DNA of 10,935 nt from Porticoccaceae bacterium (GTDB lineage Bacteria; Pseudomonadota; Gammaproteobacteria; Pseudomonadales; Porticoccaceae). The notes under the pieces were generated by a model that searched no databases, had not been told where the DNA came from, and saw only the letters and a list, made by a program, of their open reading frames with translations. The translations under genes and the position numbers were made by a program. The DNA lies in NCBI GenBank assembly GCA_030741175.1, contig JASLVT010000027.1, positions 1-10,935 of the forward strand, read 5' to 3'. This document shows positions 1 through 6,653 of this stretch, piece by piece; positions within the stretch are counted from its first letter, which is position 1, and the number at the start of each line of letters is the position of its first letter.

Positions 1-1463
1 TGCCTAACCATACCCAGTGCCGAATTATTAAGATTAATTATCTTTACCGGCAAATTGTATTGGCTACAGGTTGATAACTCCTGAATACACATTTGAATGC
101 TACCCTCACCTGTTACACAGGCGACATCTGTATCTGGGAATGCTCGCTTACAACCCATTGCGGCCGGCAGACCAAAACCCATGGTGCCGAGACCGCCGGA
201 GTTGATCCACATGCGCGGCTTATCAAATAAGTAATACTGAGCGGCAAACATCTGATGCTGACCAACATCGGAGGTGACTATCGCCTCACCATTAGTGATC
301 TCGTAAAGCATTTTGATCACATCTTGCGGCTTGATGCACTCACCAGAACTTGGCTCGTAACGAGGCGCGGTATAGATACCTTTATCTGCACGCCATTGGT
401 CAATTTGCTGCCACCACTCTGCCAGCGCCTCTGCATCGGGTTGAATATCAAGCTGTTCAGCAATACTCAACATCTCAGTTAAAACCGAGGTACAGGTACC
501 AACGATGGGTATATGGGCCTCAATGTTTTTAGACACCGTGGTTGGATCAACATCGATATGAATAATCGTGGCATGGGGACAGAATTTATCTAAATCATTG
601 GTCACCCGATCATCGAAGCGAGCACCTACGGCAAAAATCACATCGGCGTGATGCATTGCAGTGTTCGCCTCATAGGTACCGTGCATTCCCAACATACCGA
701 GATATTGCTTATCGGTACCTGGATAACCACCCAAGCCCATCAATGTGTTAGTCACTGGGAAATTTAGTCGCTTAGCCAACGCAATAAGATGCTCAGAGGC
801 ATTATCGATAACAATGCCACCACCGGTATAAATCACTGGCCGCTTTGCCCCAATCAATGTTTTGACGGCGCGCTTAATCTGTCCGCGATGCCCTTTGTCG
901 GTAGGCTGATATGAACGCATCTTGATATCTGCCGGCCAATGGTAGGGAATCTTATAACTGGGGTCAGTTACATCCTTGGGGATATCGACAACAACAGGAC
1001 CTGGTCGACCCGTCGAGGCAATAAAGTATGCTTTGGCAATTGTCTCAGCAATATCTTCAGCACGCGTAACCAAAAAACTATGCTTCACAATAGGTCGCGA
1101 CACGCCGACCATATCAGTTTCCTGAAATGCGTCTTGGCCAATTTTTGACAGTGGCACCTGCCCCGAGATAACCACCATTGGAATCGAATCCATGAAAGCT
1201 GTGGCAATACCAGTGATCGCATTAGTCGCACCCGGACCCGAGGTTACCAATGCTGTTCCCACTTCGCCGGTGGCTCGAGAAAACCCATCCGCGGCATGCA
1301 CAGCGGCCTGCTCATGGCGGACGAGAATATGAAAGACATCATCCTGTCGGTACAGGGCATCATAGATATGCAGAGCGGCTCCGCCGGGATAACCCCAAAC
1401 ATCTTTGACGCCAGCATCTTTTAAAGCGCGGATTAAAATTTCTCCGCCAGATAAGAGTTCCAC
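1..1463 (-). CDS. ilvI: Acetolactate synthase (AHAS) large subunit, 3' end beyond the window
   Basis: This is the catalytic large subunit of acetolactate synthase, a ThDP- and FAD-dependent enzyme that condenses two pyruvates to acetolactate, or pyruvate and 2-oxobutyrate to acetohydroxybutyrate, in valine, leucine and isoleucine synthesis. I translated 487 codons. The N-terminus [14 protein letters not shown] is family-typical, and RHEQAA carries the ThDP-activating glutamate (E51). TSGPGATN and the [13 protein letters not shown] stretch follow. The ThDP/Mg motif begins at GEGS (452-455) and ends at NLNNSALGM (477-485). About 85-90 C-terminal residues of a normal protein of about 575 lie off the window, and the small subunit gene (ilvH/ilvN) would be expected next. 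The start is GTG at 1461-1463, with AGAGGA six bases upstream. The first glycine-acid-glycine of the ThDP motif is GEG rather than the GDG of E. coli IlvI, a conservative change. The symbol could equally be ilvB; the large-subunit function is secure. Confidence 0.96.
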
Positions 1464-1546: not shown

Positions 1547-1571
1547 AAAAAAGACACCGCAAGTAGCGGTG
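1547..1571 (-). terminator. Intrinsic terminator in the acetolactate synthase leader (attenuator)
   Basis: On the minus strand CACCGC (1571-1566), a five-base loop TACTT and GCGGTG (1560-1555) form a GC-rich 6-bp stem. It is followed directly by TCTTTTTT (1554-1547). It lies about 85 bases upstream of the gene's GTG start and downstream of the predicted promoter, so it would abort transcripts before the gene. No other minus-strand gene precedes it closely enough to need it. The stem is short but has the classical stem plus U-tract layout. Confidence 0.75.
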
Positions 1572-1579
1572 AGAATCAG

Positions 1580-1675
1580 TCACACTGGTAAGTGCTTATG
1601 ACTGTCGTTGGCGTATAAACCTGAGGTTTGCCTTGGGTAAAAAGCAACGCCACCTCTATTGATGACCAGCGGCAT
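1580..1675 (-). CDS. Possible 31-codon leader peptide in the acetolactate synthase leader
   Basis: An ATG at 1675-1673 opens 31 codons beginning MPLVINRGGVAFY and ending HLPV, with a TGA at 1582-1580. Codons 3-5 are Leu-Val-Ile (CTG GTC ATC), and the last three codons are Leu-Pro-Val. The stop lies inside the hairpin just before the terminator, which is suggestive of translation-coupled attenuation. Against it, there is no clear Shine-Dalgarno before the ATG and no long branched-chain codon run of the kind seen in the E. coli ilvB or ilvG leaders. It may only be a chance reading frame through a structured RNA. Confidence 0.25.
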   Translation of the reverse strand: MPLVINRGGVAFYPRQTSGLYANDSHKHLPV

Positions 1676-1736
1676 GGGTTACGCCAATCTGGTACTTGGG
1701 CTAACAATCTCTCTCAATTCGATCAAGATTGCGCGC

Positions 1737-1764
1737 AATGTAACAGTTTTAAAAAATTAGTCAA
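1737..1764 (-). promoter_or_regulatory. Sigma70-type promoter for the acetolactate synthase leader
   Basis: The minus strand has TTGACT (-35, 1764-1759), a 16-base spacer, and TACATT (-10, 1742-1737), giving a start near 1730. The -35 matches consensus at 5 of 6 positions and the -10 at 4 of 6. A perfect 12-bp palindrome, ATTGCGCGCAAT (1728-1739), overlaps the end of the -10 and the predicted start, where a repressor could act. The position exactly upstream of the folded leader supports the call. Confidence 0.55.
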
Positions 1765-2062: not shown

Positions 2063-3739
2063 ATGAATCGCATCACTACTGCTCTGCTAACTGGTCTAGC
2101 CATTTCTGCTACCAGCCTTCTGATGGGTTGCGCCAAACCAACTAGCGAGGTGCTTGTGGTTGATAATATTAATGGCTATAGCTTTGACACTGAGCGTCAG
2201 TTATTTGCCTTTGATTCTATTGCCATAGCACAGGGCAAAGTGCTGAAGACGGGGTCATCCCTAGCTGACCAATATCCTAATGCCACTATCATCGATGGAC
2301 AAAATAAAACATTGATTCCCGGCATTATCGATGCGCATGGTCATGTCTCCAGCTTGGGCTACACCTTAATGCGTATTGATTTACGAGAGGCCACTTCTGC
2401 ACAACAGGCGGCCGCCGATGTTGCCGCCTACGCAGCGGATAAGCCCTACCTCAGTTGGATAAGAGGCCGCGGTTGGAATCAAGTGTTGTGGCCCGGAAAA
2501 AACTTCCCAACTGCAGCGCAACTTGACAATGAAGTTAATGACCGGCCTGTTTGGCTAGAACGTATTGATGGGCATGCGGGCTGGGCCAATAGTAGAGCAC
2601 TCGAATTAGCTGGCATCACCAGAGATACTGTGTCACCTCTCGGTGGAGAAATCATTAAAGATGCCGATGGCGAGCCCACTGGTGTCCTCATCGACAATGC
2701 TATGAATCTGGTATTCAAAGTTATTCCAGATCCAAGTGAAACTGAGCTGCGTGCCGCTCTGGATACCGTTAGTAGTCATCTACTTAGTCTGGGTATCACC
2801 TCAACACATGATGCTGGCACTTCCTCCTCAGAGCACAAACTCTACCGGACTCTGGCCGACAGCAGCGAAATGCGTCTGCGTATCTACGGGATGATCTCTT
2901 CTACCGATCCTGACCTGGAGCAAATACTTGCCGCTGGACACAGTAACGATAAGAATGACTTATACAGCGCTCGTAGTATAAAAATTTATACCGATGGCGC
3001 ATTAGGTAGTCGCGGTGCCGCTATGCTAAGACCCTACAGCGATCGACCCGACCACAGTGGACTTCTGCTGACTGGCGCAGCTCAATTGAGAGCGCTGTTT
3101 AAACAAGCCACCAATGCAGACTTCCAAGTGGCCATTCACGCTATTGGCGACAGGGGCAATCGTATCGCGCTGAATGAAATCGAGCGCACTTACAATACCA
3201 TCGGTGGTCGCCACCTCCGTCATCGTATTGAACATTCTCAGGTTGTCGCGGTTAGCGATATCCCAAGATTTAAAAGTCTCAACGTTATACCTTCAATGCA
3301 GCCGGTTCATGCCACCAGTGATATGAATATGGCAGAGGATAGAATTGGTTCGCAAAGACTAAAGGGAGCTTATGCTTGGCGCACCTTTCTCGATCAGGGC
3401 AGTATTGTTGTCGCAGGATCAGACTATCCCGTTGAACTAGCCAACCCTTTTGATGGCATCCATGCTGCCGTCACTAGACAGGATAAAACTAACCAACCTG
3501 AAGGTGGTTGGATCCCGTCACAGGCAATGAGTCTTGAAGAGGCTATGCGCGCGTTCTCCATCGATGCAGCCTGGGGTGCCCATCAGGAAGATAAGCTCGG
3601 CGGTCTGACCCCAGGCAAATGGGCTGATTTTATTTTGATCGACCGAGATATTTACAACATTCCTGCACAAGACTTATGGAAAACAACTGTGCTAGAAACT
3701 TGGCTGGCGGGAGAGCGGGTCTATAGCAAGGCCGAGTGA
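2063..3739 (+). CDS. Amidohydrolase family protein (YtcJ-like, amidohydrolase 3), predicted lipoprotein
   Basis: This is a metal-dependent hydrolase of the YtcJ/COG1574 group; the substrate cannot be told from sequence. The N-terminus is a lipoprotein signal peptide: MNR, a hydrophobic stretch, then the lipobox LMGC with C23 as the lipidated residue, so the enzyme should sit on a membrane facing the periplasm. Visible family motifs are DAHGH (HxH metal ligands H92 and H94), KIYTDGALGSRGA (K307, D311), AIHAIGDRGN (H359), HRIEHSQ (H391) and AGSDYPVE (D454). The C-terminal LTPGKWADFILIDRDI closes the composite beta-sandwich. The length of 558 is normal for the family. The ATG start is supported by the signal peptide and by GGGG about 8 bases upstream, a modest ribosome binding site. 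It stands alone on the plus strand and converges on panD with a 37-bp gap, so it is probably monocistronic and not linked by function to its neighbours. Confidence 0.93.
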   Translation: MNRITTALLTGLAISATSLLMGCAKPTSEVLVVDNINGYSFDTERQLFAFDSIAIAQGKVLKTGSSLADQYPNATIIDGQNKTLIPGIIDAHGHVSSLGYTLMRIDLREATSAQQAAADVAAYAADKPYLSWIRGRGWNQVLWPGKNFPTAAQLDNEVNDRPVWLERIDGHAGWANSRALELAGITRDTVSPLGGEIIKDADGEPTGVLIDNAMNLVFKVIPDPSETELRAALDTVSSHLLSLGITSTHDAGTSSSEHKLYRTLADSSEMRLRIYGMISSTDPDLEQILAAGHSNDKNDLYSARSIKIYTDGALGSRGAAMLRPYSDRPDHSGLLLTGAAQLRALFKQATNADFQVAIHAIGDRGNRIALNEIERTYNTIGGRHLRHRIEHSQVVAVSDIPRFKSLNVIPSMQPVHATSDMNMAEDRIGSQRLKGAYAWRTFLDQGSIVVAGSDYPVELANPFDGIHAAVTRQDKTNQPEGGWIPSQAMSLEEAMRAFSIDAAWGAHQEDKLGGLTPGKWADFILIDRDIYNIPAQDLWKTTVLETWLAGERVYSKAE

Positions 3740-3776: not shown

Positions 3777-4160
3777 TCAAACGGCAAGCTGCACTGCGAT
3801 GGTATTGGTTGTGCGCTCAACAGTATTATCCTCATTGAGGTAGACCAATTTCGGCTGGTGTTGCTCCGCCTCTACCTCAGAGAGGCCGGCATAGGTGGCA
3901 ATAATGATACGGTCGCCAACCTGACATTTGCGCGCCGCCGCCCCATTCATAGAAATAATGCCAGACCCAGCTTCAGCTGCAATAATATAGGTGGTTAAAC
4001 GCTCACCATTGCTGACGTTGTAGATATCTATCTGCTCAAACTCACGCATGCCAGCTAATTCAAGTAGATCAGAATCGATGGCACAGGAGCCATCGTACCA
4101 AAGCTCAGCTTGAGTAATGCTTGCCATATGCAATTTGGCTTTAAGAAAATTAGACATCAT
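3777..4160 (-). CDS. panD: Aspartate 1-decarboxylase (pyruvoyl enzyme)
   Basis: PanD decarboxylates L-aspartate to beta-alanine, which PanC joins to pantoate. It is made as a proenzyme that cleaves itself between Gly24 and Ser25, turning Ser25 into the pyruvoyl cofactor. Here YDGSC places G24-S25 exactly there. K9 and H11 (KLH), R54, T57, Y58 (RLTTY) and N72 (SMNGAAA) fall at the same numbers as in the E. coli enzyme. That register also supports the first of two tandem ATG codons as start, with AGGA about 10 bases upstream. A run of seven T lies between that site and the ATG. The length of 127 residues matches the family (about 126). The gene follows panC by 56 bases on the same strand and is probably in its operon. 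No PanZ/PanM maturation factor gene is visible in the window. No clear terminator follows it. Confidence 0.97.
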
Positions 4161-4216
4161 AAAAAAACAATCCTGTGCGTTAACTGGAATTCAAACGGTA
4201 AGGTCGAGTGTGAGCT

Positions 4217-5068
4217 CTAACTGAGATCGACAGATAGATTATCGATAAGTCTTGCAGCCTCGGTAAACATAGCACCAAGTATGGTTATTTGAAGATCGTC
4301 GTTGGCGGCCGGATCCAACGTTTTGCTATTACTAATAGTCACGTAATCTACGCCGAAGCCGGCCTCGACAATACGCTGCTTAGCCTCGGCTTCAAGCTGG
4401 CTAAAATCTTTATTTCCTGCCTCTACTTGACTGGCAATCCACTCCAAACTTTGCTTGAGTACAGTGACACGCGGCCGCTCATCGTCGGTGATATAACTAT
4501 TGCGAGAACTCATTGCCAAACCGTCAGGCTCGCGATGAATCGGCGCAGGACTGATTTGAACAGGCATACAGAGATCCTCAGCCATACGCCGAATGACTGC
4601 GAGCTGCTGGTAGTCCTTGATGCCAAAAATAGCCTCATCTGGCTGTACAATATTAAATAACTTGCTGACAACTGTGGTTACACCCTCAAAATGCCCCGGA
4701 CGACTCGCGCCACAGAGCACATCAGTCATAGTCGGACAAATAACACGGCTCTGCGTATCCAGACCATTGGGATACATTTCCACATCATCGGGGTGAAACA
4801 AATAATCACAACCGATTTCACGCAGTTTGGCGCAATCAGTTTCATAGGTTCGCGGATATTTATCCCAGTCCTCGTTGAGACCAAATTGCAACGCATTGAC
4901 AAAGATCGAGCAGACGACAACATCATTGCTCTCACGAGCCTGTCGAATTAATGCGAGATGGCCCTCGTGAAGATTCCCCATGGTAGGCACAAAACCAATG
5001 CGAGCGCCCCTTCGACGGTGCTGATTGAGGGCATCCCGAAGGCCACTAACGGTGTGAAAGATCTTCAT
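4217..5068 (-). CDS. panC: Pantothenate synthetase (pantoate--beta-alanine ligase)
   Basis: PanC is a cytosolic enzyme that activates pantoate with ATP to pantoyl-adenylate and joins it to beta-alanine, the last step to pantothenate. Residues 27-37, [11 protein letters not shown], carry the HIGH-like nucleotide-binding motif. [11 protein letters not shown] (120-130) and [10 protein letters not shown] are typical, and MSSRNSY (186-192) is the KMSKS-like loop. The length of 283 is normal. Two normally conserved spots differ. VNALQF (58-62) stands where VNPxQF is usual, and FGIKDYQQ (148-155) has Ile where E. coli has FGEKDFQQ; the lysine is kept. The ATG start has AGGA 8 bases upstream. The gene begins only 24 bases after dnaB ends and is followed by panD, so dnaB-panC-panD may be one transcript. 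panB, the usual upstream partner, is not in the window. Confidence 0.97.
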
Positions 5069-6610: not shown

Positions 6611-6653
6611 TAAACAAAAACGGCACTGCATCTTAGTAAGAAGCAGTGCCGTT
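6611..6653 (-). terminator. Intrinsic terminator between rplI and dnaB
   Basis: On the minus strand AACGGCACTGC (6653-6643) pairs perfectly with GCAGTGCCGTT (6629-6619). The 13-base interval itself contains the small self-complementary TCTTA/TAAGA, so the hairpin is almost closed. A T-rich tract, TTTGTTTA, follows at 6618-6611. It lies 50 bases after the rplI stop and ends the rpsF-rplI transcript. The plus-strand side lacks a comparable T run, so it acts on the minus strand. Confidence 0.85.

Follow-up and report, generated by a model that had tools for sequence, protein, structure and literature searches.

What kind of RNA precedes the acetolactate synthase gene at this Porticoccaceae locus, and how might it act on that gene? 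The stretch of DNA analysed here (the window, 10,935 nucleotides) holds at one end a gene for the large subunit of acetolactate synthase (ilvB/ilvI type; positions 3-1463, reverse strand, GTG start at 1463; TIGR00118 above its cut-off), which the window end cuts. Acetolactate synthase carries out the first step of branched-chain amino acid synthesis. The closest named relatives of the ilvB gene are found in SAR92-clade and other Porticoccaceae genomes. By eye, a Shine-Dalgarno region (AAGAGGAC, 1469-1476) precedes the start on the same strand, and most related leaders keep its GAGG. The divergent gene adjoining the leader (2063-3739) encodes a lipoprotein-like amidohydrolase, whose NCBIfam matches, to metal-dependent hydrolases, are weak and all below cut-off. 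Positions 3777-5068 hold what we take to be panD and panC; pantothenate synthesis and the branched-chain pathway have a common 2-oxoisovalerate branch. An inverted repeat, AACGGCACTGC..GCAGTGCCGTT, lies further along (6619-6653) between two genes, presumably dnaB and rplI, and is likely a two-way terminator.

All features of the leader lie on the reverse strand, and we give their positions from the 5' end of the RNA. A promoter-like site is formed by TTGACT (1764-1759), a 16-nucleotide spacer and TACATT (1742-1737), with TG ahead of the second hexamer. The 193-nucleotide leader that follows (1737-1545) has a predicted folding energy of -61.6 kcal/mol, lower than each of 200 dinucleotide shuffles (mean -47.6 kcal/mol, z -3.56). 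From the 5' end, the fold comprises the hairpin H0 (1732-1704); H1 (1693-1665), with an inner helix GGCGU/AUGCC (1685-1671) and an outer helix ACCAG/CUGGU (1693-1689 with 1669-1665); the branched H2 (1651-1610); H3 (1604-1577; CAGUC..GACUG around an inner CAC-UUACCA-GUG); and H4 (1571-1555; CACCGC-UACUU-GCGGUG). H2 has an outer helix GGCGU/ACGCC, a hairpin whose loop includes UUACCC (within 1646-1629) and an extra hairpin (1628-1618), a layout drawn partly by eye as well as from the fold and backed by covariation. H4 is terminator-like, with 6 base pairs, 5 of them GC, and is followed by TCTTTTTT. The promoter and the five helices, this hairpin among them, had all been listed in a preliminary description of the locus, and each is present at or very near the place it gave. 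Within the scanned stretch, chance alone readily yields promoter-like and terminator-like sites: 2 terminator-like sites were found with 0.7 ± 1.0 expected, and 1 promoter-like site with 1.5 ± 1.2 expected. Conservation, not the single sequence, therefore bears the weight for both.

The conserved element extends past the terminator-like hairpin to about 1520 and includes two long-range helices, P1 and P0, both absent from the helix list of the preliminary description. P1 encloses H2, H3 and H4. Its 5' strand, GCUG-GU-CAUCAA (1670-1659), is supported by complementarity and by the fraction of alignment cells paired, and its 3' strand, UUGAUG-CUU-CAGC (1548-1536), begins just past H4, overlapping the last bases of the U-tract (UCUUUUUU, 1554-1547). 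P0 pairs a stretch before H1 (CCAGAUUGGCG, 1692-1682) with a complementary stretch after P1 (CGCCACUGAG, 1529-1520).

The leader is shared widely among relatives. A DNA search found it in 30 of the 56 relatives' genomes, all of them in the same genus as the window. From 27 of 29 SAR92-clade leaders we built an alignment (A1) and a covariance model (R1), leaving out L009, which has a long insertion, and L029, which contains N's. The 29 themselves do not include L021, which sits at a contig edge. Of the 50 same-genus genomes listed, R1 located a single copy of the leader in each of 47; the three genomes without a match are 71-85% complete. The gene that follows is ilvB in 46 of these 47 leaders, and the remaining one lies at a contig edge. 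The promoter is conserved too: 44 of the 46 related leaders have the pattern TTGA-N17..19-TAnnnT ahead of them. One of the two misses, L025, lies at a contig end whose sequence resembles a sequencing-library adaptor, so that the alignments probably begin, for this leader, with bases that are not genomic. In L009 (1530-1825), a unit like TTGAGCTGATTAACAGCC is repeated in tandem in the H2 branch; the branch is therefore able to grow. At full length the leader of the window measures 276 nucleotides, and a compact relative, L022, has 227.

Across the family, R1 matched 63 of 112 genomes at E<=1e-3 and 72 at E<=1. Among 390 genomes of the order it matched 13 at E<=1e-3, 12 of them within the family. 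The thirteenth (L123, E 9e-4) belongs to another family and by eye lies inside an apparent coding gene, presumably asd; we took it as a chance match. A second alignment and model (A3 and R2) comprise 36 of 66 cores, hand-picked for diversity, without near-copies, wrongly cut cores (such as L120 and L045) and the divergent leaders of genus g26 (L195, L197, L201 and L204). Within the family, 18 genomes were sampled and R2 matches 16, some of them represented in the alignment it was built from. Beyond the family, 37 genomes gave weak R2 matches (E 0.001-1, best 0.0013), which we treated as noise. Neither R1, R2 nor RF02919 found a leader in the Porticoccaceae genus g24 (G141, G215). As judged by these sequence models, most of the Porticoccaceae genomes that we examined have kept the leader.

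We then asked whether the helices covary among these relatives, which the preliminary description had named as a check on its structure. Compensatory changes are found in H1, H2, H3 and H4, and also in P1. RNAalifold, run on a structure-blind MAFFT alignment, predicted 31 pairs, 13 of them with two-sided changes. In the 36 diverse cores of A3, 87.2% of the cells of the structure H1 + P1(H2,H3,H4) are paired, compared with 82.4% in shuffles and 27-45% in slid versions, and two-sided change occurs in 17 of 32 pairs compared with 8.9 in shuffles. None of 500 shuffles scored as high on any of five measures, in a test whose structure derives partly from the same, related sequences, which favours the real over the slid versions.

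The helices differ in where their support comes from. Two-sided change affects 4 of 5 pairs in the inner part of H1, and in a swap test, which compares the pairing of a leader's own arms with that of arms exchanged between leaders, its own arms pair better in 41 of 47 SAR92 leaders. The outer pairing of H1 gave no coevolution in that test (19 of 47). The arms of H0 coevolve within SAR92 (own better in 45 of 47), and those of H2 do so across other genera (17 of 17). In A3, H3 has its outer helix paired in 97% of cells, with two-sided change in 3 of 5 pairs, and H4 has such change in 4 of 5. P1 is nearly invariant within SAR92 and shows no coevolution there (23 of 47); its own strands are more complementary than shuffles in 47 of 47, and it coevolves across other genera, with own strands better in 14 of 17. 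Its cells in A3 are paired at 94% (GCUG/CAGC) and 83% (CAUCAA/UUGAUG), and by eye the four g26 leaders are without the usual GAUG..CAGC strand. The other-genera swap test used 17 of 25 leaders, leaving out near-copies (L121, L187, L192, L194, L197 and L204) and two leaders of genus g143 (L200, L202) in which the 3' strand of P1 could not be placed.

An all-column-pair covariation test along the tree returned no pair below E 0.05; its best pair (E 0.075) has just 57% standard pairs, and the next, columns 38-198, is entirely standard at E 0.4. Covariation beyond controls, the mark of a structured cis-regulatory RNA, is seen in the leader, with the tree-based all-pairs test not significant. The conserved fold and its apparent ability to take two alternative shapes, set out below, suggest that the leader probably controls ilvB.

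One way for it to do so would be as an attenuator in which H4 and its U-tract stop transcription unless an antiterminator forms, and the preliminary description had indeed proposed conditional premature termination. The terminator in the window is a good one; the U-tract behind it is the strongest of the 47 leaders and is not conserved, which weakens the claim. Under a lenient rule (stem of at least 5 pairs and at least 5 T in 8), just 25 of the 47 relatives pass, the window being best with 7. By eye, hardly any U-tract follows H4 in several leaders of other genera, for example L186 and L189, and no conserved strand competes with the arms of H4. What is kept is the H4 hairpin as a branch inside P1, and we consider terminator attenuation quite improbable. 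Nor do the data point to a switch at the ribosome-binding site. The Shine-Dalgarno sequence is predicted to be mostly paired, with an openness of 0.30 in the full leader and 0.22 in the 3' part alone. A possible anti-Shine-Dalgarno, GGUCCUU (1516-1510), appears in the window fold only, and its complementarity to the Shine-Dalgarno sequence was no better than that of shuffles (25 of 47 leaders). Sequestration switched by P0 found no support in the swap, shuffle or accessibility tests and was dropped.

P0 itself fared well. Its own arms pair at -13.4 kcal/mol, compared with -10.9 kcal/mol for arms swapped between leaders under 70% identical, and own arms were better in 41 of 47 SAR92 leaders, a statistic drawn from related sequences whose p values are not strict. 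Controls gave lower counts, each of 47: 18 and 18 with the strands reversed, and 23, 14 and 23 in the H2/H3, H4 and H0 regions. The complementarity of the leader's own strands exceeded that of shuffles in 44 of 47. Across other genera own arms were better in 14 of 17, compared with 11 of 17 for the reversed control. Columns 38-198 of the tree test (CG 32, AT 13, TG 1, GC 1) would lengthen P0 outward, and the outer part of P0 taken alone is unsupported by the swap test (26 of 47).

The strands of these helices overlap. The inner bases of P0 are the left arm of H1 (GGCG, an overlap of 3-5 bases), and the right arm of the outer H1 helix (CUGGU) is part of the left strand of P1. The leader therefore looks like a two-state switch, in which P0 and H1, and likewise P1 and outer H1, would be mutually exclusive, to judge from the shared strands. 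Both the inner part of H1 and P0 coevolve, each to the same extent, which is the pattern expected from two functional alternatives. Folding predictions agree in part with two states: outer H1 is predicted in 40 of 47 transcripts cut before the 3' strand of P1 and in 12 of 47 full leaders, and the full leaders are predicted to form P1 in 32 of 47 and P0 in just 20 of 47. That such states regulate the gene is what we infer.

Taken together, these observations lead us to propose a cis-regulatory two-state leader RNA of the acetolactate synthase gene that matches no Rfam family, a reading we hold to be evenly balanced between right and wrong. In the nascent RNA, the extended H1 (ACCAG..CUGGU) would form first. 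When transcription has passed the stretch after H4, CUGGUCAUC could be released from H1 to pair in P1, and CCAGnnGGCG could likewise be released to pair in P0. The choice between H1 and P1/P0 would be biased by a signal of branched-chain amino acid supply and would set the amount of ilvB that is transcribed or translated. Either the RNA fold itself or a factor that binds the conserved core and loops would read this signal, rather than a translated leader peptide. A more specific version makes the leader a novel class of regulatory RNA that works without a leader peptide and itself senses the supply of branched-chain amino acids. It would alternate between an extended local hairpin and a core clamped by P0 and P1, and a single ligand, tRNA or protein would recognise the repeated U(U)AYC loops. 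We put this version forward tentatively, as rather unlikely in all its parts.

The main rival to reading the signal through the RNA fold is a leader peptide. Here a short ORF would be translated from ATG 1675, and ribosome stalling at CTG-GTC-ATC would pick between alternative hairpins. The preliminary description was correct that the leader has no long run of Val, Leu and Ile codons; it overlooked a frame in the window, ATG CCG CTG GTC ATC (Met-Pro-Leu-Val-Ile) from 1675, which did not prove conserved as an ORF in our tests. The codons CTG, GTC and ATC are each found in 46 of 47 SAR92 leaders, the five codons after ATC vary most at third positions (1.8, 3.0 and 5.6 steps at positions 1, 2 and 3), and the overlap of the H1 and P1 strands resembles an attenuator. 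A start codon (ATG, GTG or TTG) occupies the start position in 34 of 47 leaders (ATG 27, GTG 6, TTG 1), but the other leaders have ATA (6), ACG (4), ACA (1) or GAG (1) there, 12 in all, or NTG (1), and by eye no Shine-Dalgarno sequence lies ahead of ATG 1675.

The frames were surveyed with any start allowed in all 47 leaders of the genus and in most of those from other genera. The Leu-Val-Ile frame (frame C) was opened most, in 40 of 47, compared with 30 for frame A and 24 for frame B. Starts and stops nevertheless vary among the leaders, the stops are not shared, and no short ORF with a shared start and stop was found in the 47. A conserved upstream ORF was sought in all three frames and rejected, since neither frame C nor frame A, which yields peptides rich in branched-chain residues (for example in L017), persists throughout the leaders. 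Windows of 12 codons nowhere score above column-permuted alignments (observed 107.8, permuted mean 159), in a weak coding test whose permutation also levels conserved blocks. L044, L045 and L058 are more distant leaders; their Leu-Val-Ile stretch reads CCGGGCATC, CCAGGCGTC and CTGGGCATC respectively, so that the triplet is lost, and P1 retains its GAUGUCACAGC-type 3' strand. The bases of CTG GTC ATC are otherwise held by their pairing in P1. On balance we find the leader peptide unlikely. We keep it as the main rival because PMC10272879 reads the ilvB-OMG, ilvB-II and ilvB motifs in this way and argues for upstream ORFs in ilvB motifs other than this one.

In the proposed two-state RNA, a binder could act at the loops as well as at the core. 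Among the 47 leaders, the hexaloop of H3 is UUAYCN in 36 (one with an N), GUACCN in 6, UCAUCC in 3 and UGACCC in 1, with one unparsed. The loops of H2 mostly contain UAYC or AYC and are less uniform. Hairpins with UUAYC or UAYCC loops number 1.11 per SAR92 leader compared with 0.05 in shuffles, and 0.65 compared with 0.04 in 17 RF02919 members; in 8 other OMG-type leaders they are near shuffles (0.12 and 0.03). A search of 21 genomes for the exact H3 hairpin pattern found a single copy in 12 and no genome with two, and a scan of viral contigs with a 14-base pattern was too unspecific to inform. Readings of the UACC loops as T-box or tRNA D-loop elements were dropped, the evidence for them being wanting. 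As a separate observation, ilvB leaders of the Marinobacter/Marinobacterium group (0.38 compared with 0.03, n=8) and of Pseudomonas (0.20 compared with 0.02, n=15), loci among L072-L109, also carry UUAYC or UAYCC loops above shuffles; such loops are perhaps a wider motif of ilvB leaders.

The leader thus stands as a candidate RNA switch, widespread in Porticoccaceae and without an Rfam match, that joins the short list of ilvB leader RNAs. With a comparatively supported fold and many natural variants, it offers a means of testing whether a leader peptide, as proposed in print, or the RNA itself is responsible. The repeated U(U)AYC loops, present in ilvB-OMG members too, give a handle for finding the binder. 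Our search of open-access full text found no description of this leader, and PMC2965389 contains no ilv terms.

How does the leader relate to systems already known? The preliminary description had suggested the ilvB-OMG class (RF02919). Its structured leader of an acetolactate synthase gene holds, and the helices covary; the class assignment is not supported. RF02919 gave no match at E<=10 on positions 1460-1800 and none at E<=5 on 18 related loci, and it recovered its positive control, the Haliea leader L095, at 118.2 bits (gathering threshold 95.9 bits). No other Rfam family, T-box models included, matched 1460-1800 at E<=10. Over 390 genomes of the order, RF02919 scored above its cut-off in 14 and strongly (E<1e-15) in 17, every one of them from a single family other than the window's, which is probably Halieaceae because L095 is Haliea. 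In the window's own family it gave one weak match (16.4 bits) among 18 genomes, away from the site of R2. Reciprocally, R2 matched at the RNA in none of the 17 RF02919 loci, nor in L095 (best there 8.5 bits, E 1.4, elsewhere).

The two leaders nevertheless share the gene they precede, a structured character and the same order of bacteria. By eye, both have UUGGyG..UACCC..CC.CUGGyC at the first hairpin, which ends in CUGG, and further on a hairpin whose loop carries UACC. In both groups, UUAYC or UAYCC hairpin loops are commoner than in shuffles. They differ in that neither model matches the other's members, in the set of downstream hairpins and in family. A diverged homologue of RF02919, in which the same ancestral leader acquired different stems, is a possibility we regard as falling somewhat short of probable; it concerns origin and is compatible with the two-state reading.

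Enteric ilv leader-peptide attenuators also place mutually exclusive pairings ahead of an acetolactate synthase gene, and carry long runs of Val, Leu and Ile codons. The Porticoccaceae leader differs in having no such run and in conserving more RNA structure. ppGpp riboswitches upstream of ilv genes, named in PMC10272879, are likewise RNA leaders in the same pathway, whereas the leader in the window matches none of the Rfam models at E<=10. That paper also reports short upstream ORFs rich in branched-chain codons for the ilvB-II motif of Corynebacterium and the ilvB motif of Leptospira, whereas in SAR92 leaders neither an ORF nor the U-tract is conserved. Like the leader described here, both motifs are leader RNAs of ilvB, and ilvB-II is reported there with terminator and antiterminator pairings.
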